From an uncultured Rhizobiaceae group bacterium (GTDB lineage: Bacteria > Pseudomonadota > Alphaproteobacteria > Rhizobiales > Rhizobiaceae), in NCBI GenBank assembly GCA_938010435.1, contig CALLUS010000018.1:1-64000 (forward strand): a stretch of 64,000 nt of DNA. The letters run 5' to 3'. Under the pieces are notes generated by a model. That model saw only the letters and a list, made by a program, of their open reading frames with translations, did not search any database and was not told where the DNA came from. Position 1 is the first letter of the stretch; every line of letters begins with the position of its first letter. Below are positions 37,017-46,755 of the stretch, piece by piece. Both the position numbers and the translations under genes were made by a program.

Positions 37017-37697
37017 CTAGTCATGGAAGGTCGCAAAGTCTTCTAACTCCGCACGGTCCGTTACCAAGCTGTTTTCAATTGCATCCGGGTCCGCATGTCC
37101 AATTGCCATTCCACAGATCACAGTTTCAATATCTGGAATATCCAGTTGTGATTTGATCACATTTTGAAAGTTGGCAAAGGCTGCTTGTGGGCACGTGTCC
37201 AAACCACGTCCTCGGGCAGCGATCATGATATTCTCCATGAACATGCCATAGTCCAACCAAGACCCCATTTCCAACCGACTGTCCAATGTGAACATGAGAC
37301 CCACAGGCGCATCAAAGAATGTATAGTTGCGGCCGAGCTGCGCATGCATCTTATCTTTGTCTTCACGGCCAATGCCAAGAACGTTGTAGAGATCCCAACC
37401 AACCTTTCTGCGTCGCGCTAAATAAGGTTCCGGAAATTCATCCGGGTAGTATTTGTAAGCCCGTTTGCCATTATAGTTGGGGTCATCGTGCGCTTTGAGC
37501 ACCGCAGTCGATAAAGCCTCTTTCGCACCACCTGTCAAAACATGAACTCTCCAAGGTTGCATATTGGTGCCCGAAGGTGCGCGAGCCGCCGCACTCAATA
37601 TTTCGCGAACAGCTTCATCAGACACAGGAGTGGATAAAAAAGCTCGCACAGAGCGTCGGCTTATGATGGCATCATCAACAACTTGTTTTGCATCCAT
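37017..37697 (-). CDS. nitroreductase family flavoprotein
   Basis: A 226-residue FMN-dependent oxidoreductase of the nitroreductase/NfnB type. It has IISRRSVRAFLSTPVSDEAV (FMN phosphate binding, residues 11-30), ARAPSGTNMQPWRVHVL (about 37-53), and the C-terminal GMAIGHADPDAIENSLVTDRAEL. It reduces nitro groups, quinones or similar acceptors with NAD(P)H. It is divergent from the XRE-cupin regulator with 160 nt between them, so it might be a target of that regulator (inference). Confidence 0.88.
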   Translation of the reverse strand: MDAKQVVDDAIISRRSVRAFLSTPVSDEAVREILSAAARAPSGTNMQPWRVHVLTGGAKEALSTAVLKAHDDPNYNGKRAYKYYPDEFPEPYLARRRKVGWDLYNVLGIGREDKDKMHAQLGRNYTFFDAPVGLMFTLDSRLEMGSWLDYGMFMENIMIAARGRGLDTCPQAAFANFQNVIKSQLDIPDIETVICGMAIGHADPDAIENSLVTDRAELEDFATFHD

Positions 37698-37857: not shown

Positions 37858-38448
37858 ATGGCTTTCGCTGCATCAATTCAGGAAAATGAGTCACAAGGCG
37901 TGGAAGCTTTGGGTAATGATGTTCGAGGGTTGCGAAAATCCCGCGGATTAACCCTCAATGAATTAGCTTTAAAAATAGGACGTTCCGTTGGATTCATCTC
38001 CCAAGTGGAACGTGGCCTTTCCTCTCCATCTATCGATGATTTGCGGGCCATCGCATCTGCTCTTGATGTGCCAACAAGTTGGTTTTTTGCCCATGATGCC
38101 CAAGATGACAGTGAACGCGGCTTAGTCGTGCGCGCAAACAGCCGTCGGGCCTTAGGCACACCTGAATCTGGAATAGTGGAAGAATTATTATCACCAGACC
38201 TTGGTGGTTCTTTTGAAATGTTCAGGTCTGTATTTCAGTCGGGTGCTGAACTTGAAAAAGAAATCTATCGCGAAACCGAAGAAGCCGGATACGTGGTCTC
38301 CGGACAATTCGATATTTGGATTGAGGGGAAACACTTTTGCTTAACAGCGGGAGATTCCTTTCGTTTCGATCACAAGCCTTATCGCTGGAAAAATATGGGT
38401 GAGATTCCCGCAGTTGTTGTGTGGGTCGTCAGCCCGCCCGTTTATTAA
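37858..38448 (+). CDS. XRE-family regulator with C-terminal cupin sensor
   Basis: A 196-residue transcription factor. It has an N-terminal HTH (VRGLRKSRGLTLNELALKIGRSVGFISQVERGLSSPSIDDLRAIASALDV, about residues 22-72) and a C-terminal cupin (about 115-195, ETEEAGYVVSGQFDIWIEG and GDSFRFDHKPYRWKN) that would bind a small ligand. Relatives of the PuuR type control polyamine or amine catabolism. GGAGG lies 7 nt before the ATG. It immediately precedes the methylated-amine genes (12-nt gap to the first oxidase) and is the obvious local regulator. Confidence 0.9.
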   Translation: MAFAASIQENESQGVEALGNDVRGLRKSRGLTLNELALKIGRSVGFISQVERGLSSPSIDDLRAIASALDVPTSWFFAHDAQDDSERGLVVRANSRRALGTPESGIVEELLSPDLGGSFEMFRSVFQSGAELEKEIYRETEEAGYVVSGQFDIWIEGKHFCLTAGDSFRFDHKPYRWKNMGEIPAVVVWVVSPPVY

Positions 38449-38459
38449 GAGAAAAACCT

Positions 38460-40928
38460 ATGTCTGAAGAACAAACACAAAACAATCTCCCTTCCCATGC
38501 CCGCGTTGTCATCATTGGTGGCGGAGCTGTAGGGGTTTCATCACTTTATCACCTCGCCAAACTTGGTTGGTCAGATTGCGTCCTATTAGAAAAAAATGAA
38601 CTGACAGCCGGGTCTACGTGGCATGCTGCTGGCAATTGCCCCAACTTCTCTAATTCTTGGGCCGTATTAAACATGCAGCGTTACGGATTGGAATTGTATC
38701 GAGGATTGGCGGACGAAGTAAACTACCCGATGAACTACCACGTCACAGGTTCTGTTCGTCTGGCCCATTCTAAAGAGCGTATGCAGGAGTTTGAACGGGT
38801 TGCAGGCATGGCCCGCTACCAAGGTTTGAACGTAGAAATTTGTTCGTCCGAAGAACTACAAAAATACAATCCGTTTATGGAAACCCACGATCTTGTTGGT
38901 GGCATGTACGATCCGCTCGACGGTGACATTGATCCGGCACAATTGACCCAGGCCCTTGCCAAAGGTGCCCGCGACATGGGCCAGAAGATTGTGCGTTTTT
39001 GCCCTGCAACAGGCGTCAGCAAAAACGGTGACGAATGGATTGTTCACACGGAAAAAGGTGACATCACCTGTGAATATGTGGTCAATGCAGGTGGATATTA
39101 CGCCCAACGCGTTGGTGAATGGTTCAAACCTTACGGTGGCCGCACCGTGCCCATGGTGGTGATGAGCCATCAATATTTCCTCACTGCGGAAATTCCTGAA
39201 TTGGAAGCATGGACCAAGGAACAGGGGCATAAAATGCCCATGGTTCGTGACGTGGATATTTCTTACTATCTGCGTCAAGACAAAAATGGCCTAAACCTCG
39301 GCCCTTACGAACGAAATTGTAAAGCTCATTGGATCACACCGGAAGATCCAATGCCCGATGATTTCTCTTTCCAGCTTTACCCAGATGATCTGGAACGTCT
39401 TGAGTTTTATATTGAAGATGCAATGGAACGGATGCCTATTCTCGGCACCCAAGGTGTGGAACGTGTCATCAACGGACCTATTCCTTATGCACCCGATGGC
39501 TTGCCTTTGCTTGGTCCAATGCCCGGAGTAAAGAATGCATTTGAAGCCCATTCATTCACCTTCGGTATCGCCCAAGCAGGCGGCGCAGGTAAAGTTCTGT
39601 CCGAATGGATCGTCAACGGCGCCCCTGATTGGGATATGTGGGCAGTTGACCCCCGCCGTTACACCGCACATGTCGATCATGAATACAGCCTTGCCAAAGC
39701 AAAGGAGACCTATGGCCACGAATACGCCATGCATTTTCCATACCACGAATGGCCTGCCGCGCGTGACAAAAAACATTCCGCTGTTCATAGCAAGTTGCTA
39801 CAACTCGGTGGACAGATGGGCGCTTACAATGGATGGGAGCGCGCCAACTGGTTCTCCAAAGATGGCGATGACACATCGGAAGAAGCCACACATACTTGGG
39901 AACGCAAAGGTCCTTGGTTACCCCGTGTCAAAGAAGAGTGCGAAGCCGTGCGCGATGCCTGCGGTGTTCTCGATATGCCGGGCTTTTCCCGTTATAATCT
40001 TAAAGGTGAAGGCGCTGCGGATTGGTTGCGCAAACAGATTACAGGTGGATTGCCAAAAACTGGTCGATTGAACCTTGGTTATTTTGCCGATGAAAAAGGC
40101 CGCATCGTTACAGAAATGTCGATCATTCGTCATGGTGAAGATGATTTTACATTGATGACAGCAGCCGTCGCAGAATGGCACGATTTTGAATGGCTACAAA
40201 AAGCACTTCCGAAAGATGGTTCGCTCGCACTGACCAACCACAGTACAGAATATGCAGTTTTGTTGGTAACGGGCCCAATGTCGCGCGATGTAATTTCATC
40301 CATTGCCGATGAGGCTGATCTTGAATCAAGTTGGCTTACTCATAATCCGGCAAAAATTGCTGGCACAGGTTGCGCATTGGCACGCGTATCTTTTGCTGGC
40401 GAACTGGGTTGGGAAATCCACGCCAAAACCGAAAACATCCCTACGCTTTACGATGCTGTTTTAGGCGCAGGCGCAAAACCTTTCGGCATGTACGCGCTGG
40501 ATTCGCTCCGTCTTGAAAAGAGCTACCGCACTTGGAAAGGCGATCTTTCGACAGATTACACCATTCTGGAAGGCGGCATAGAACGCTTCGTGCGTTGGCA
40601 GAAAGACGACTTTGTCGGCAAAGGAGCCATGGAGCAGGAAAAGCAACAAGGTGTGAAAAAAGGTTTCGTCACCATGATCGTGGAAGCCGGTGATTTTGAT
40701 GCACCTTATATGTCTACGATCTGGGACGGTGACACTGTCATCGGGGAAACCACATCAGGGGGGTGGGGCCACCGCATCAACAAATCTATCGCCCTTGGTG
40801 TGGTAAAGTCGGAATTCACAAAACCCGGAACAGAATTGGAAATTGAAATGTACGGTTCCCGCTACAAAGCTGTCGTGCAAGACGACAAACCACTTTGGGA
40901 CCCAGACAACGAAAGAATCCGCGCTTAA
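38460..40928 (+). CDS. FAD oxidoreductase-GcvT fusion, dimethylglycine/sarcosine dehydrogenase type (copy 1)
   Basis: An 822-residue two-part enzyme. The N-terminal DAO domain has RVVIIGGGAVGVSSLYHLAKLG (residues 14-35) and a GSTWHAAG site (about 58-65), whose His is the covalent FAD attachment residue in dimethylglycine dehydrogenases. From about residue 470 a GcvT-like folate domain follows, with VSFAGELGWEIH (about 645) and a GCV_T C-terminal barrel. The chemistry would be oxidative N-demethylation with transfer of the carbon to tetrahydrofolate. Unlike copy 2, it continues NCPNFSNSWAVL after the FAD His, so substrate sites differ. Confidence 0.9.
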   Translation: MSEEQTQNNLPSHARVVIIGGGAVGVSSLYHLAKLGWSDCVLLEKNELTAGSTWHAAGNCPNFSNSWAVLNMQRYGLELYRGLADEVNYPMNYHVTGSVRLAHSKERMQEFERVAGMARYQGLNVEICSSEELQKYNPFMETHDLVGGMYDPLDGDIDPAQLTQALAKGARDMGQKIVRFCPATGVSKNGDEWIVHTEKGDITCEYVVNAGGYYAQRVGEWFKPYGGRTVPMVVMSHQYFLTAEIPELEAWTKEQGHKMPMVRDVDISYYLRQDKNGLNLGPYERNCKAHWITPEDPMPDDFSFQLYPDDLERLEFYIEDAMERMPILGTQGVERVINGPIPYAPDGLPLLGPMPGVKNAFEAHSFTFGIAQAGGAGKVLSEWIVNGAPDWDMWAVDPRRYTAHVDHEYSLAKAKETYGHEYAMHFPYHEWPAARDKKHSAVHSKLLQLGGQMGAYNGWERANWFSKDGDDTSEEATHTWERKGPWLPRVKEECEAVRDACGVLDMPGFSRYNLKGEGAADWLRKQITGGLPKTGRLNLGYFADEKGRIVTEMSIIRHGEDDFTLMTAAVAEWHDFEWLQKALPKDGSLALTNHSTEYAVLLVTGPMSRDVISSIADEADLESSWLTHNPAKIAGTGCALARVSFAGELGWEIHAKTENIPTLYDAVLGAGAKPFGMYALDSLRLEKSYRTWKGDLSTDYTILEGGIERFVRWQKDDFVGKGAMEQEKQQGVKKGFVTMIVEAGDFDAPYMSTIWDGDTVIGETTSGGWGHRINKSIALGVVKSEFTKPGTELEIEMYGSRYKAVVQDDKPLWDPDNERIRA

Positions 40929-40946
40929 CGGCGAGGCGACACAGAT

Positions 40947-41846
40947 ATGGCGAATATTGTACTTTTAGACGGTGGAATGGGTCAGGAATTGATAGCTCGA
41001 TCAACCAACCCACCATCCCCGTTGTGGTCTGCAAATGTAATGATGAACGAGCCTGATATTGTTGAGGCCGTACATGCAGAATATATTAAAGCTGGTGCCA
41101 AGGTCTTAACTTTGAACACATATTCCGCGACGCCTGAACGATTGGCACGGGATGCCAGTGAAGACTTGTTTGAATCACTGCAAGCCAAGGCAATTGAGAT
41201 CATTGAAAGCGCTGCTGCCAATTCAGACGTAACCTTGGGCGGTTGCCTGCCACCACTATTTGGCAGCTACCACCCGGAACATGCCCCTGACTTCAACATT
41301 TGCCTAAACACTTATCGCCGCGTTGTGGCACAACAAAAAAACGCGATGGATATTTTGATTTGCGAAACACTGTCGTCGGTCAAAGAAATAAAAGCTGCTG
41401 TTCAAGCCGGCAGTGAATCCGGCCTTCCCGTCTGGTGCGGTATGAGCACCAAAGATGAAGACGGCACGTTGCTGAGATCCGGAGAGCCATTGGCAGAAGG
41501 TGCTCAAGCTGCAAAAGATGCGGACGCTGCTGCGGTCGCAGTAAATTGTTCATGGCCTGAAGCAGTTACCCAAGCTCTACCCTTTCTTGCAAACACCGGA
41601 TTACCTTTCGGGGGTTGGGCTAACGGTTTTACCAATGCCGCAGGCGATCTTGGCATTGGCGGCACCGTCGATAATATGGACAAGCGTACGGATCTTGATC
41701 CTGAGAGTTACGCCAGACATGTCATGGAATGGGTGAACCACGGCGCAACCCTTGTAGGCGGTTGCTGTGAAGTTGGCCCTGCACATATCAAGAAAATTGC
41801 TGACCGGTTGGTTGAAGCTGGACACACACTCACAGGAAAACTGTAA
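40947..41846 (+). CDS. homocysteine S-methyltransferase family protein (BHMT/MmuM-like)
   Basis: A 299-residue zinc-dependent methyltransferase barrel. It begins VLLDGGMGQELIARSTNPPSPLW. The first zinc Cys is in AVNCSW (about 196), and the Cys pair is in GGCCEVGPAHIKKIA (about 271-285). These are the three zinc ligands of betaine-, S-methylmethionine- and related homocysteine methyltransferases. It lies between the two oxidases and overlaps the second (TAATG). The context suggests removal of one methyl from a betaine to homocysteine before oxidative demethylation; the donor is not determined by sequence. Confidence 0.9.
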   Translation: MANIVLLDGGMGQELIARSTNPPSPLWSANVMMNEPDIVEAVHAEYIKAGAKVLTLNTYSATPERLARDASEDLFESLQAKAIEIIESAAANSDVTLGGCLPPLFGSYHPEHAPDFNICLNTYRRVVAQQKNAMDILICETLSSVKEIKAAVQAGSESGLPVWCGMSTKDEDGTLLRSGEPLAEGAQAAKDADAAAVAVNCSWPEAVTQALPFLANTGLPFGGWANGFTNAAGDLGIGGTVDNMDKRTDLDPESYARHVMEWVNHGATLVGGCCEVGPAHIKKIADRLVEAGHTLTGKL

Positions 41847-44308
41847 TGTCAGACGATAAAAAAACAGTTCCAACAAAAGCCCGGGCCGTCGTTATCGGTG
41901 GTGGTGTGGCTGGTTGTTCCGTGGCCTATCATTTGGCCAAACAAGGTTGGAAAGATGTTGTATTGCTGGAGCGCAAACAACTGACATCAGGCACAACTTG
42001 GCACGCCGCTGGTTTGATTGCACAATTACGTGCAACCAAAAACATGACGCGTTTGGCCAAATACAGTCAAGAACTTTACGGTGAACTGGAAGCCGAAACG
42101 GGTGTGGCCACAGGCTTTCGCCGTTGCGGTTCAATCACCGTTGCCCTGACCGACGAACGCAAAGAAGAAATTTTACGTCAAGCCTCTATGGCCCGCGCAT
42201 TTGGCGTGGATGTGGATGAGATTTCAGCCGCCGAAGTGAAAGAAAAATATCCTCACTTGAACATCAACGACATAACAGGTGCAGTTTATCTGCCCCTCGA
42301 CGGTCAAGGTGATCCGGCCAACATCGCATTAGCTCTCGCTAAGGGCGCACGTATGAACGGTGCCAAAGTGATGGAAGGTATCAAGGTCACAGACATTCAT
42401 AAGGCCGATGGTCGTGTGACGGGTGTTTCATGGTCTCGCGATGGAAGTGACGAAGCCGGAACCATTGAAGCGGATTGTGTTGTGAACTGCGGTGGTATGT
42501 GGGCGCACGAAGTGGGGCGTATGGCGGGTGTTAATGTTCCACTTCATGCATGCGAACATTTTTACATTGTTACTGAAAGCATCAAAGGTCTTACACAACT
42601 TCCCGTTCTTCGTGTGCCGGATGAATGCGCCTACTATAAAGAAGATGCAGGCAAAATGTTGCTCGGCGCTTTTGAACCTGTTTCCAAACCTTGGGCCATG
42701 AATGGCATTCCTGATGATTTCTGCTTTGATCAACTGCCCGAAGACTTTGACCACTTCGAACCCATTTTGGAAAAAGCCGTAGACCGCATGCCCATGTTGG
42801 CAGAGGCCGGCATTCATACATTCTTCAACGGCCCTGAAAGCTTTACACCAGACGACGCTTATCATCTGGGCGAAGCACCCAATCTCGATGGGTTTTGGGT
42901 TTGCGCAGGGTTCAACTCCATCGGGATTCAATCTTCCGGCGGCGCTGGCATGGCACTCGCCCATTGGATGGAACATGGTCATCCGCCATTCGATATTGGT
43001 GACGTGGACATTCGCCGTATGCAACCATTCCAAGGCAATAAAACATACCTGTTTGAACGGGCCAAAGAATCTCTCGGCCTGCTTTATGCAGATCACTTCC
43101 CTTATCGCCAAATGGCAACCGCCCGTGGTGTCCGCCGCACACCATTTCATCAACATCTGAAAGATCAAGGTGCTGTCTTTGGTGAAGTTGCCGGATGGGA
43201 ACGCGCCAATTGGTTTGCCGATAAAGATCAAAATCCTGAATACGAATATTCATGGAAACGTCAGAACTGGTTTGAAAATTCTAAACGCGAGCATGAAGCC
43301 GTACGCAACAATGTTGGCATGTACGACATGACATCATTCGGCAAATTGCGGGTTGAAGGCCGTGACGCTGAGAAATATCTCAACTACATCTGCGGTAATG
43401 ATGTTTCTGTACCCGTTGGCAAAATCACATACACGCAATTCTTGAACAACCGTGGCGGCATCGAAGCCGATGTCACCGTCACTCGCTTGTCTGAGACCGC
43501 TTATATTGTGGTGACTCCAGCAGCAACTGTCCAACGTGAACTGCAATGGATGAGCAAACATTTAGGCAACCATAATGTGGTGATCACTGACACCACTTCC
43601 GCTGAAGGTGTTTTGGCAGTCATGGGTCCAAATGCCCGCAAATTGTTGGAAAAAGTATCCCCTCACGATTGGTCAAGCGCCAATCACCCATTTGGACAAG
43701 CCCATGACATTGAACTGGGTATGGGCCTCGCCCGCGCGCACCGCGTGACCTATGTTGGTGAACTGGGTTGGGAGCTTTACATCTCAAGCGACATGGCGAC
43801 TCATGCGTTCGAAACACTCCACGAAGCCGGCAAAGATCTTGATCTCAAACTATGTGGGATGCACATGATGGATTCGCTTCGCATTGAAAAAGGGTTCCGT
43901 CATTTCGGCCACGACATTACCGAAGAAGACCATGTCCTCGAAGCAGGTCTCGGGTTTGCTGTTAAAACCGCCAAAGAAAACTTCATTGGCCGTGATGCAG
44001 TTCTGGCCAAGAAAGAAGTCGGCCTCGATATGCGTATGGTGCAGTTTAAGCTGAAAGACGCTGAACCCATGTTGTACCATAATGAACCTGTTATTCGTGA
44101 TGGAGAAATCGTCTCCTACGTCACATCAGCCAATTACGGCCACACTTTAGGTGGCGCGATCGGTATGGGATACGTGCCTTGCGCAGGTGAGAAACCTGAT
44201 GAAGTTCTTTCTTCCAACTATGAGATCGAAATTGCTGGCGTTCGTGTGGAAGCTGAAGCAAGCTTGCGTCCAATGTACGACCCGAAATCAGAACGTGTGA
44301 AAGCGTAG
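41846..44308 (+). CDS. FAD oxidoreductase-GcvT fusion, dimethylglycine/sarcosine dehydrogenase type (copy 2)
   Basis: An 820-residue paralogue of copy 1 with the same order. It has AVVIGGGVAGCSVAYHLAKQGW (residues 14-35), GTTWHAAGLIAQLRATKNMT with the FAD-linking His, and a GcvT folate part (about 470-820) with VTYVGELGWELYIS and the C-terminal PVIRDGEIVSYVTSANYGHT. The active-site loop after the His (GLIAQLRAT) is the common dimethylglycine dehydrogenase form. Two divergent copies side by side suggest two successive demethylations, tertiary to secondary and secondary to primary amine (inference). Confidence 0.9.
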   Translation: MSDDKKTVPTKARAVVIGGGVAGCSVAYHLAKQGWKDVVLLERKQLTSGTTWHAAGLIAQLRATKNMTRLAKYSQELYGELEAETGVATGFRRCGSITVALTDERKEEILRQASMARAFGVDVDEISAAEVKEKYPHLNINDITGAVYLPLDGQGDPANIALALAKGARMNGAKVMEGIKVTDIHKADGRVTGVSWSRDGSDEAGTIEADCVVNCGGMWAHEVGRMAGVNVPLHACEHFYIVTESIKGLTQLPVLRVPDECAYYKEDAGKMLLGAFEPVSKPWAMNGIPDDFCFDQLPEDFDHFEPILEKAVDRMPMLAEAGIHTFFNGPESFTPDDAYHLGEAPNLDGFWVCAGFNSIGIQSSGGAGMALAHWMEHGHPPFDIGDVDIRRMQPFQGNKTYLFERAKESLGLLYADHFPYRQMATARGVRRTPFHQHLKDQGAVFGEVAGWERANWFADKDQNPEYEYSWKRQNWFENSKREHEAVRNNVGMYDMTSFGKLRVEGRDAEKYLNYICGNDVSVPVGKITYTQFLNNRGGIEADVTVTRLSETAYIVVTPAATVQRELQWMSKHLGNHNVVITDTTSAEGVLAVMGPNARKLLEKVSPHDWSSANHPFGQAHDIELGMGLARAHRVTYVGELGWELYISSDMATHAFETLHEAGKDLDLKLCGMHMMDSLRIEKGFRHFGHDITEEDHVLEAGLGFAVKTAKENFIGRDAVLAKKEVGLDMRMVQFKLKDAEPMLYHNEPVIRDGEIVSYVTSANYGHTLGGAIGMGYVPCAGEKPDEVLSSNYEIEIAGVRVEAEASLRPMYDPKSERVKA

Positions 44309-44318
44309 GAAAAATAAA

Positions 44319-45149
44319 ATGGACCAGGAAGACAAAGGCAAAATATTTCGCGAACTTCACCAGCCCGGAAGTCCATTCATTCTGGCCAATGCGTATGATG
44401 TGGGTTCCGCAAAAATGTTAGCGACAATGGGCGCGGCCGCAATTGGGACAACAAGCGCAGGATTTGCCTTCACCGTTGGTGAACCTGATGGTGCCATCGT
44501 TACCCGCGATCAAATGTTGGATCATTGCGAAGACATCGTACGGGCCGTGAATATTCCGGTCTCCGGTGATTTAGAGAACGGTTATGCAGATGATCCGGAC
44601 GGTGTGGCAGAAACTATAATACTCGCTGCAGAAGTAGGGATGGTTGGTTGCTGTATCGAAGACACAACTTTTGAAGACGGAAAACCCGCCTATGATTTTG
44701 ACGTTGCTGTCGAACGCATTCGTGCAGCCGTGGATGCAGCTGAAAGCCTGCCATTTGATTTCACTCTCTGCGCCCGCGCTGATGGGGTCATGATCGGAGC
44801 CTACGACACTGCAGAAGCGATTGCCCGTTGTCAGGCCTTTGAGGAAGTGGGTGCACATCTTGTTTATGCTCCGGTTCTACCAACCATGAACGATGTTACC
44901 ACCCTTTGCGCGTCGGTCTCAGTTCCCGTGAATGTTTTGTGCGCGGGGTCCAATACCAAATATTCCAAAGCTGATTTCGCAAAAGCAGGTGTCGGCCGCA
45001 TCTCTATTGGCTCCGCTTTAGCAAGAGCGACTCACAGGGTCGTTCTAGAGGCTGGTCATGCCATGCTGGATGATGGAGATTTTTCACAATTGGGGCGCAG
45101 TGTTTCCGGTGACGAAATAGATCGTATGCTCAAAGGAAACGGCGCCTGA
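44319..45149 (+). CDS. isocitrate lyase/PEP mutase superfamily protein
   Basis: A 276-residue alpha/beta barrel of the ICL/PEPM superfamily. It has LANAYDVGSAKMLATMGAAAIGTTSAGFAFTVG (residues 20-52), GDLENGYADDPDGVAETI with the metal-binding acidic residues, GCCIEDTTFEDGKPAYDF and FTLCARADG. The KKCGH/KRCGH motif of isocitrate and methylisocitrate lyases is not seen. It is therefore more likely an oxaloacetate-decarboxylase- or phosphonopyruvate-hydrolase-like C-C or C-P bond enzyme. It is embedded between the oxidase and MttB-like genes; its role there is unknown. Confidence 0.85.
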   Translation: MDQEDKGKIFRELHQPGSPFILANAYDVGSAKMLATMGAAAIGTTSAGFAFTVGEPDGAIVTRDQMLDHCEDIVRAVNIPVSGDLENGYADDPDGVAETIILAAEVGMVGCCIEDTTFEDGKPAYDFDVAVERIRAAVDAAESLPFDFTLCARADGVMIGAYDTAEAIARCQAFEEVGAHLVYAPVLPTMNDVTTLCASVSVPVNVLCAGSNTKYSKADFAKAGVGRISIGSALARATHRVVLEAGHAMLDDGDFSQLGRSVSGDEIDRMLKGNGA

Positions 45150-45177
45150 CGACACATTTATTGTTTGGGAGGACAAT

Positions 45178-46755
45178 ATGAGCATCGCAGAAGAAACTCC
45201 AGCAAGGGCCGGACGTTCAGGCGGACGGTCCGCAAGACGCGCCGTTCGTGCCGCTCCATTATCTGAAGACATCAAACCGGTTCGCGCAGGCATGAACGGA
45301 GGCGAATATAAGCCTCTGTCAGACAGTGATGTTCAAAAAATCCATGAAGCCGTTCTGGATGTTCTGGAGAATATAGGCCTCTCCCAAGCCACACCCACCT
45401 GCATTGCCGCTTGTGAAAAGCTTGGCGCGATTATGGGTGACGATGGTCGTTTGCGCTTTCCGCGCCAAGTGGTGATGGATACAATTAAAAACGCCAACCG
45501 CAACTTAACAGTTCATGCGCGTGACCCGAAATACGACCTACACCCCCAAGGTGAAAAAGTTCACTTCGGAACAGCAGGCGCCGCCGTTCACGTGGTTGAT
45601 GTGGAAAAGAACGAATATCGCGAAAGCTATCTCAAAGATATCTACGATGCAGCGCGCATCGTGGAGGGGTTGGATAATATCCATTTCTTCCAACGCCCAA
45701 TGGTGGCCCGCGATTTGCCAGACCCTCTCGATCTTGATCTTAACACACTATACGCATGTCTTGCGGGCACCACAAAACACATCGGAACGTCTTTCACACT
45801 GGCTGAGTATGTACCCGATGCATTGAAGATGATGTACAAAGTGGCTGGTGGTGAAGAAGCCTTCCGCGCACGACCATTCGTGTCCAATTCAAACTGCTTC
45901 GTCGTTCCTCCCTTACGATTTGCTGCAGATGCCACAGACGTTTTAGAAGCTTGTGTTTATGGCGGTATGCCTGTTCTTTTATTGTCCGCCGGCCAGGCAG
46001 GCGCGACTTCTCCCGCGGCTATTGCAGGAGCCGTTGTTCAAGCTGTCGCAGAAGTTTTGGCCGGACTTGTTTTCGTCAATGCACTCGTACCCGGCCACCC
46101 TGCACTTTTTGGCACTTGGCCGTTTGTATCCGACCTACGCACAGGGGCCATGTCAGGTGGTTCGGGTGAGCAAGCATTGCTGACGGCCGCCTGTGGCCAA
46201 ATGGCAAATTTCTATGATCTGCCCGGTGGGTCAGCCGCAGGAATGTGCGACTCGAAAATGCCAGATATTCAAGCTGGATGGGAAAAAGGAATTGCCTATG
46301 TTTTAGCCGGAATGGCTGGAACAAACATGGTCTACGAGGCTGCCGGCATGCATGGCTCTCTCATGGGTTTTTGCCTTGAAAGCTTATTCCTCGACAATGA
46401 TGCACTGGGCCAGGCGTTGCGCTGTGTTCGCGGAATTGAAGTAACAGACGAAACCCTAAGCATCCATGCCATGCGTGATGTGTGCGTAGATGGCCCCGGA
46501 CATTACCTCGGACACAGCCAGACACTTGATCTGATGCAAAAAGAATATTTTTATCCTGATCTTGCAAACCGCTTCAGTCCGAAAGAATGGGCGGAACTTG
46601 GCAAGCCGGATATTGTTCAATTAGCCATCGAACGTAAGAAAAAAGTATTGTCCGAGTTTTTTCCAAATCACGTAGATTCGGCAACCGATAATTGGCTGCG
46701 CAACGAATTCAATATCTGCTTACCGGAAAAAGATATGAAGCCGCGGGTTCAGTAA
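45178..46755 (+). CDS. MttB-like (trimethylamine methyltransferase family) corrinoid-type methyltransferase, non-pyrrolysine
   Basis: A 525-residue protein of the MttB superfamily. It has a basic Arg/Gly-rich leader (residues 1-40), then the barrel: LSDSDVQKIHEAVLDVLENIG, GTAGAAVHVVDVEK, PFVSNSNCFVVPPLRFA, LPGGSAAGMCDSKMPDIQAGWEK and AGMAGTNMVYEAAGMHGSLMGF. The reading frame has no internal stop, so there is no pyrrolysine codon; it belongs with the MtgB-type betaine/carnitine demethylases. GGAGG lies 7 nt upstream. Such enzymes pass a methyl group to a corrinoid protein, yet none is encoded next to it. Last gene of the amine cluster. Confidence 0.9.
   Translation: MSIAEETPARAGRSGGRSARRAVRAAPLSEDIKPVRAGMNGGEYKPLSDSDVQKIHEAVLDVLENIGLSQATPTCIAACEKLGAIMGDDGRLRFPRQVVMDTIKNANRNLTVHARDPKYDLHPQGEKVHFGTAGAAVHVVDVEKNEYRESYLKDIYDAARIVEGLDNIHFFQRPMVARDLPDPLDLDLNTLYACLAGTTKHIGTSFTLAEYVPDALKMMYKVAGGEEAFRARPFVSNSNCFVVPPLRFAADATDVLEACVYGGMPVLLLSAGQAGATSPAAIAGAVVQAVAEVLAGLVFVNALVPGHPALFGTWPFVSDLRTGAMSGGSGEQALLTAACGQMANFYDLPGGSAAGMCDSKMPDIQAGWEKGIAYVLAGMAGTNMVYEAAGMHGSLMGFCLESLFLDNDALGQALRCVRGIEVTDETLSIHAMRDVCVDGPGHYLGHSQTLDLMQKEYFYPDLANRFSPKEWAELGKPDIVQLAIERKKKVLSEFFPNHVDSATDNWLRNEFNICLPEKDMKPRVQ

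Follow-up and report, generated by a model that had tools for sequence, protein, structure and literature searches.

The window considered here, a stretch of 64,000 nucleotides from an uncultured bacterium of the Rhizobiaceae, carries at positions 37858 to 46755 six open reading frames on the plus strand, which encode in this order an XRE-cupin regulator (REG), a DAO-GcvT flavoenzyme (DMG1), a BHMT-like protein (BHMT), a second DAO-GcvT flavoenzyme (DMG2), a PEPM-like protein (PEPM) and an MttB-like protein (MTTB). Successive genes are separated by 11, 18, -1, 10 and 28 bp, and a further 103 bp lie between the last of them and a pyruvate carboxylase gene that forms the 3' flank. A preliminary description of this DNA had proposed six tightly packed genes on one strand, which is borne out by the reading frames at these coordinates and by Pfam domains that score over their cut-offs. 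On the 5' side lie leuB, a DUF4174 gene and a nitroreductase-family gene on the minus strand (37017-37697). The last of these adjoins the operon and has BluB as its best NCBIfam match, far below the cut-off (52.6 of 150 bits); a gene of equal length occupies the matching place in locus L097, a contig of the MAG Hyphomicrobiales bacterium MH2_Bin52.

Domain assignments are Pfam matches over curated cut-offs, and NCBIfam equivalogs were judged against their own cut-offs. REG (37858..38448) consists of an HTH_3 and a Cupin_2 domain, and its best NCBIfam match, PuuR, stays far below the cut-off at 52.8 of 211 bits. DMG1 (38460..40928), which probably starts at the ATG at 38460 rather than at the GTG at 38421, and DMG2 (41846..44308) are both over the cut-offs for DAO, FAO_M, GCV_T and GCV_T_C, and thus share the DAO-FAO_M-GcvT domain order of mammalian-type dimethylglycine dehydrogenase (DMGDH) and bacterial DMGO; sarcosine dehydrogenase belongs to the same comparison group. 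The closest PDB match of DMG1 is mammalian DMGDH (556 bits). The flavin-motif histidine, the histidine and tyrosine of the active site and the acidic residue of the folate domain in DMG1 and DMG2 align with those of DMGDH and DMGO, and we take these residues to be the flavin-linking, active-site and folate-domain residues of the two proteins. Among genes above set length and identity thresholds, which apply to all residue counts and trees given here, His68 of the flavin motif, His250, Tyr282 and Asn72 of DMG1 are each identical in 131 of 131 rows, as are His53 of the flavin motif, His238 and Asp542 of the folate domain of DMG2 in 124 of 124, and Tyr263 is likewise unvarying. Asn72 of DMG1, four residues after the flavin histidine, takes the place of a leucine in DMGDH and DMGO, and at 40 control loci that carry a paralogous DMGDH the flavin motif is followed by glycine in 39 of 41 matches. 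A position like that of Asn72 binds the acid group of the substrate in monomeric sarcosine oxidase, and by this analogy it is possible that the substrate of DMG1 carries a different acid group.

BHMT (40947..41846) is a single-domain homocysteine-methyltransferase-like protein over the cut-off of PF02574, in which Cys201, Cys273 and Cys274 are each found in 57 of 57 rows and presumably form the zinc-binding triad of the homocysteine S-methyltransferase superfamily. It falls below the cut-offs both of the betaine-homocysteine methyltransferase/MtgE equivalog (NF005718; 68.8 of 338 bits) and of the S-methylmethionine-type enzyme MmuM (NF007020; 139.5 of 215 bits). PEPM (44319..45149) is a protein of the ICL/PEP-mutase superfamily which is recognised by PF13714 only and lies below all five NCBIfam equivalogs listed, so that these scores do not support an assignment as methylisocitrate lyase, PEP mutase or phosphonopyruvate hydrolase. 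MTTB (45178..46755) belongs to the MttB superfamily (PF06253; 386.6 bits with a cut-off of 25). It is not the pyrrolysine-containing trimethylamine methyltransferase, as Met356 stands at the column of X in 7xcl and the score to TIGR02369 is 348.9 of 525 bits; nor does it fall within the glycine betaine MtgB group (2qne/9yce), being no closer to MtgB (188 bits) than to MttB (198 bits). A search for a corrinoid protein within the operon found none, and a B12-binding gene sits on another contig of the genome (C14).

Gene neighbourhoods were compared for 40 MttB relatives from the GTDB family of the window, for six annotated plasmid loci, for 80 named loci found by DMG1 alignment (the best 80 of at least 589 confirmed, mostly from roseobacters and some cut by contig ends) and for 30 DMG1 loci found among 397 genomes belonging to the order. 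This order set was drawn from 33 places in other genomes at 49% identity or more, with G284, G355 and G228 left out, and six of its 30 loci come from one genus. Near DMG1, the best 80 named loci hold DMG2 in 70 cases, REG in 69, BHMT in 57, MTTB in 10 and PEPM in 3, while the corresponding numbers for the 30 loci of the order set are 27, 21, 5, 9 and 3. These counts mark REG, DMG1 and DMG2 as the core of the gene set and BHMT, MTTB and PEPM as optional. Of 127 DMG-bearing loci 13 contain PEPM, which also occurs in L265, on a stretch from which MTTB is absent. Many roseobacter loci add LysE-type and GFA-type genes; all roseobacter loci are assigned by homology only. The six-gene order of the window recurs in L097, where it is preceded by leuB and by genes of the lengths of the DUF4174 and nitroreductase genes and is followed by a gene for 1153 amino acids, and again in a genome of the same family (locus L067 of genome G039), which argues that the operon is more than a chance assembly. 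In the sister species (G082) DMG1, BHMT, DMG2 and PEPM lie on one contig, and MTTB with an adjoining pyc-like gene for 1153 amino acids lies on another.

Co-occurrence across genomes points the same way as the neighbourhoods. Among 151 genomes of the family, 64 carry DMG1 and 60 an MTTB of the window type (E ≤ 1e-170); both are found in 51 genomes, DMG1 alone in 13, MTTB alone in nine and neither in 78 (Fisher 9e-19, kinship of the genomes ignored). One genome (G150) stands outside the 64 though at its locus L264 a contig ends in a DMG1-like gene (62%). The two genes lie within 20 kb of each other in 23 of the 51 genomes that have both, so that their co-occurrence is mostly without linkage, which argues for joint function. 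The neighbourhood comparison suggested by the preliminary description thus finds the genes co-conserved in relatives, and together with the co-occurrence it supports the pathway of successive N-demethylations that had been proposed and the linkage of a cupin regulator to it. The locus is a real, conserved demethylation operon. Several of the MTTB and DMGDH matches show one internal stop (for example 1 TGA), which would mark either an overrun past the gene end or a broken gene.

Beside the DMG1 and DMG2 genes of relatives, genes for TauABC-like transporters, MocR-type (TauR-like) regulators, the sulfoacetaldehyde acetyltransferase Xsc, Pta and acetate kinase recur. The transporter proteins have the taurine proteins TauA, TauB and TauC as their best NCBIfam matches, all below cut-off, and Xsc is over its cut-off. 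The fullest clusters are those of Roseibium album (L127), with TauABC-like proteins, a class III aminotransferase without a taurine-specific name, MocR, REG, DMG1, MTTB, DMG2, Xsc and acetate kinase, and of Ahrensia kielensis (L098), with TauABC-like proteins, MocR, REG, DMG1, DMG2, Pta and Xsc. Inspection of eight regions placed TauR-like and Xsc genes near the DMG genes in all of them (G109, G012, G115, G058, G039, G135, G004 and G150). G039 unites the entire six-gene operon, a TauR-like gene and xsc in one region, with 11.4 kb between MTTB and Xsc; G135, of the same genus, has five of the six genes (no REG was labelled) with a shortened DMG1 match, an inserted PNPOx-type gene, a TauR-like gene and 9.1 kb between MTTB and Xsc. 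Among the 30 DMG1 loci of the order set, 10 (7 of 21 genera) have TauA or Xsc, as opposed to one of the 40 loci with a paralogous DMGDH (Fisher 0.0006, kinship ignored). These controls were taken from 51 available places; ten of the 40 lie in genomes that also carry DMG1, and the 40 included one match in the DMG1 range and one in the DMG2 range; the latter is in L234, and this lone control locus with taurine genes therefore also holds a DMG2 relative. Over the 151 family genomes, DMG1 and Xsc occur together in 30, DMG1 without Xsc in 34, Xsc without DMG1 in 12 and neither in 75 (Fisher 8e-6, kinship ignored). They lie within 20 kb of each other in nine of the 30 genomes with both, which represent seven genera, and about 0.3 would be expected from random placement in 4 Mb.

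Such proximity might arise if the taurine and demethylation genes were neighbours merely through islands of osmolyte use that gather unrelated pathways, and some of these regions do contain choline sulfatase, TRAP transporters and choline-dehydrogenase-like genes. This explanation is very improbable, since the paralogous DMGDH is a gene for methylated osmolytes as well and yet shows the low linkage of the controls, and since REG, DMG, TauR-like and TauABC-like genes stand side by side in L098, L127, L187 and L188.

Phylogenetic trees of the flavoenzymes, which were made by a fast method and include some long branches that leave their details uncertain, place the window close to taurine-linked relatives. 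In the DMG1 tree it groups with the sister species and with the taurine-linked loci L187 and L188 (support 98), and in the DMG2 tree it belongs to a group of 14 rows (support 98) of which seven are taurine-linked. L097, which shares synteny with the window, clusters with L067 in a DMG1 tree but with the window in the DMG2 tree. When linkage to taurine genes is treated as a label in two sets of trees (loci L257, L264, L269, L068 and L082 being left out of the second), a minimum of 11 to 13 changes is required, seven to nine of which are forced by well supported branches, and the link is thus spread over the family; in the second set the label is at the same time more clustered than shuffled labels, as none of 500 shuffles gave so low a number. 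The window itself holds no taurine genes in the surroundings of the operon, and two of the best 80 of at least 589 named, mostly roseobacter, loci are taurine-linked. These two facts would suit a flavoenzyme pair that serves several substrates, with methylated taurines used in some lineages and another betaine served by the window and roseobacter versions that are accompanied by BHMT or PEPM, as would the varied company of accessory genes (BHMT, PEPM, class I/II aminotransferase, GFA, LysE, Rieske and ETF). Such a division of substrates is nevertheless unlikely: in both G039 and G135 a single region holds PEPM, BHMT, MTTB and Xsc, the residues examined scarcely vary among the 131 DMG1 and 124 DMG2 rows, and the taurine-linked rows are scattered through the trees, with near relatives of the window among them.

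Xsc and TauABC-like genes are present elsewhere in the window genome. On contig C7 the gene for Xsc (935 bits, cut-off 676) is preceded by a MocR gene and followed by one for a molybdopterin oxidoreductase, and contig C24 encodes a TauABC-like set whose proteins are 57, 80 and 59% identical to those of DMG-linked relatives. The same genome contains three more MttBs, two of which were compared and are MtgB-like (370 and 347 bits to MtgB, 118 and 125 to MttB). These two lie on contig C14, which also encodes the B12-binding protein, an MtgE-type protein (NF005718; 502 bits, cut-off 338) and a protein with a methyltetrahydrofolate:corrinoid methyltransferase domain (401.8 bits, cut-off 259). Further DMGDH-like genes, together with SoxB and SoxA over their cut-offs, complete a separate complement of glycine betaine, dimethylglycine and sarcosine-type genes, beside which the operon would be redundant for glycine betaine. 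A glycine betaine pathway, in which MTTB or the BHMT-like protein makes dimethylglycine, DMG1 is a dimethylglycine dehydrogenase and DMG2 a sarcosine dehydrogenase, was the first working idea; it agrees with the DMGDH match of DMG1, with the GMC, BADH-like or GbcA-like genes of some LysR-type loci and with carnitine genes near the Neorhizobium locus L080. It was set aside on account of the separate MtgB-like MttBs, the sarcosine oxidase genes and the taurine linkage of relatives. The position of MTTB outside the MtgB group, the MtgE-type gene and DMGDH paralogues elsewhere in the genome and a score of 257 of 670 bits for the Rieske protein of L080, below the GbcA cut-off, also speak against this pathway, which is now quite improbable.

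The best-supported class of substrates is that of the N-methylated taurines, which the operon, judging from sequence comparison, is rather likely to demethylate. They are favoured because orthologues of the operon genes are found repeatedly near TauABC-like genes, TauR-like MocR genes, xsc and pta, and because genes of glycine betaine type are present elsewhere in the genome. The preliminary description had named a betaine, a choline-derived or a less usual N-methyl compound as the starting point; the last of these is retained in the form of N-methylated taurines, and the first two lose ground to the separate genes of the genome. Against the taurine reading count the missing taurine genes beside the window operon, PEPM, which has no place in the route, and the position of some relatives near BADH-, GMC- or carnitine-type genes. 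The operon is likely to represent a new catabolic variant assembled from known kinds of enzyme. A narrower proposal, which can be put forward tentatively, is that it is dedicated to taurine betaine, with an MttB subfamily and a shared corrinoid protein, a parallel taurine-betaine:homocysteine methyltransferase and two folate-linked demethylases that together yield taurine.

The proposed route, from its substrate and the order of its steps to its partner proteins, the role of BHMT and its regulation, may be pictured as follows. MTTB, as a putative taurine betaine:corrinoid methyltransferase, would pass one methyl group of taurine betaine (N,N,N-trimethyltaurine) to a corrinoid protein, with the MtgC- and MtgD-like proteins encoded on another contig as its partners; alternatively the BHMT-like enzyme might move this methyl group to homocysteine. 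DMG1 would then act as an N,N-dimethyltaurine demethylase which oxidises its substrate to N-methyltaurine, and DMG2 as an N-methyltaurine demethylase which forms taurine, the one-carbon units being transferred to tetrahydrofolate on the GcvT domains of both proteins. Taurine would be deaminated to sulfoacetaldehyde and cleaved by the Xsc encoded elsewhere in the genome, and the XRE-cupin protein is probably the sensor of the substrate. Alternative enzymes encoded beside the flavoenzyme pair would remove the first methyl group, namely MTTB, the BHMT-like protein or, at certain rhizobial loci, a Rieske protein that resembles GbcA.

DMG1 and DMG2 would differ from DMGDH and DMGO, beyond the asparagine of DMG1, in a substrate for which a sulfonate group is expected. 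The Xsc route of taurine dissimilation involves TauR, TauABC, Xsc and Pta. It would share its end with the proposed route, and its genes lie beside DMG1 and DMG2 orthologues in a minority of relatives and elsewhere in the genome of the window, but the proposed route places three demethylation steps ahead of taurine. The known dissimilation of N-methyltaurine releases methylamine and ends at sulfoacetaldehyde. Its family of substrates and its end are the same, whereas the operon would employ folate- and corrinoid-linked enzymes and give taurine rather than methylamine. For Ruegeria pomeroyi the available part of one report describes demethylation of glycine betaine by MtgBCD and a split methionine synthase, MtgCDE, and considers other methylated compounds as possible substrates for as many as seven pfam06253 genes in each genome (PMC12478193). 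Compared with MtgBCDE as it appears there, the proposed route has in common a first step by the MttB superfamily and a shared corrinoid protein, and MtgC-, MtgD- and MtgE-like genes are present on contig C14. Differences from that system are the position of MTTB and the missing corrinoid gene noted above, and the two GcvT-fused flavoenzymes and distinct homocysteine-methyltransferase-like protein that the operon carries.

Methylated taurines are natural compounds. According to the accessible portions of two reports, trimethyl-, dimethyl- and monomethyltaurine occur together with taurine in the red alga Galaxaura rugosa (PMC10538540), and taurine betaine is cited from Madracis corals (PMC5557254). 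A literature search, with most subscription journals outside its scope, brought up no publication on bacterial genes for the demethylation of methylated taurines. If the taurine reading is correct, it would provide testable genes for the passage of carbon, nitrogen and sulfur through marine and soil habitats. It would also suggest a substrate for one of the pfam06253 proteins to which none has been assigned (PMC12478193), and methionine synthesis might then draw on a second methylated osmolyte. A dedicated taurine betaine pathway would furthermore connect the breakdown of sulfonates with methionine and one-carbon metabolism in Hyphomicrobiales and roseobacters.

Several features of related loci may be added. 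A choline-sulfatase-type gene, over its cut-off in L067, shares a region with MttB and Xsc genes in L067/L257, L262 and L263. A GbcA-like Rieske oxygenase gene follows the flavoenzyme pair in L080 (there below the GbcA cut-off), L195, L196, L199 and L215, where it replaces MttB or stands beside it. Just before DMG2, L064, L082, L086, L194, L198, L201-L204 and L216 have a class I/II aminotransferase gene, identified as such in L064, whose product perhaps deaminates the final amine. Electron-transfer flavoprotein subunits, FolD and PurU are encoded with the flavoenzyme pair in L077, L078 and L079 and are likely to serve as electron acceptor and for disposal of the one-carbon units. The MttB loci L070, L113, L135, L142, L147 and L068 contain BADH-like, 3-hydroxyisobutyrate-dehydrogenase-like or GMC genes, with a LysR-type regulator in five of them, and possibly act on another substrate. 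Among 29 MttB loci that lack DMG genes (L037-L060, L062, L066, L073 and others), 25 have a MocR-type regulator about 40-50% identical to the TauR-like proteins, mostly directly before MttB and with a glucose-6-phosphate isomerase gene next to it.
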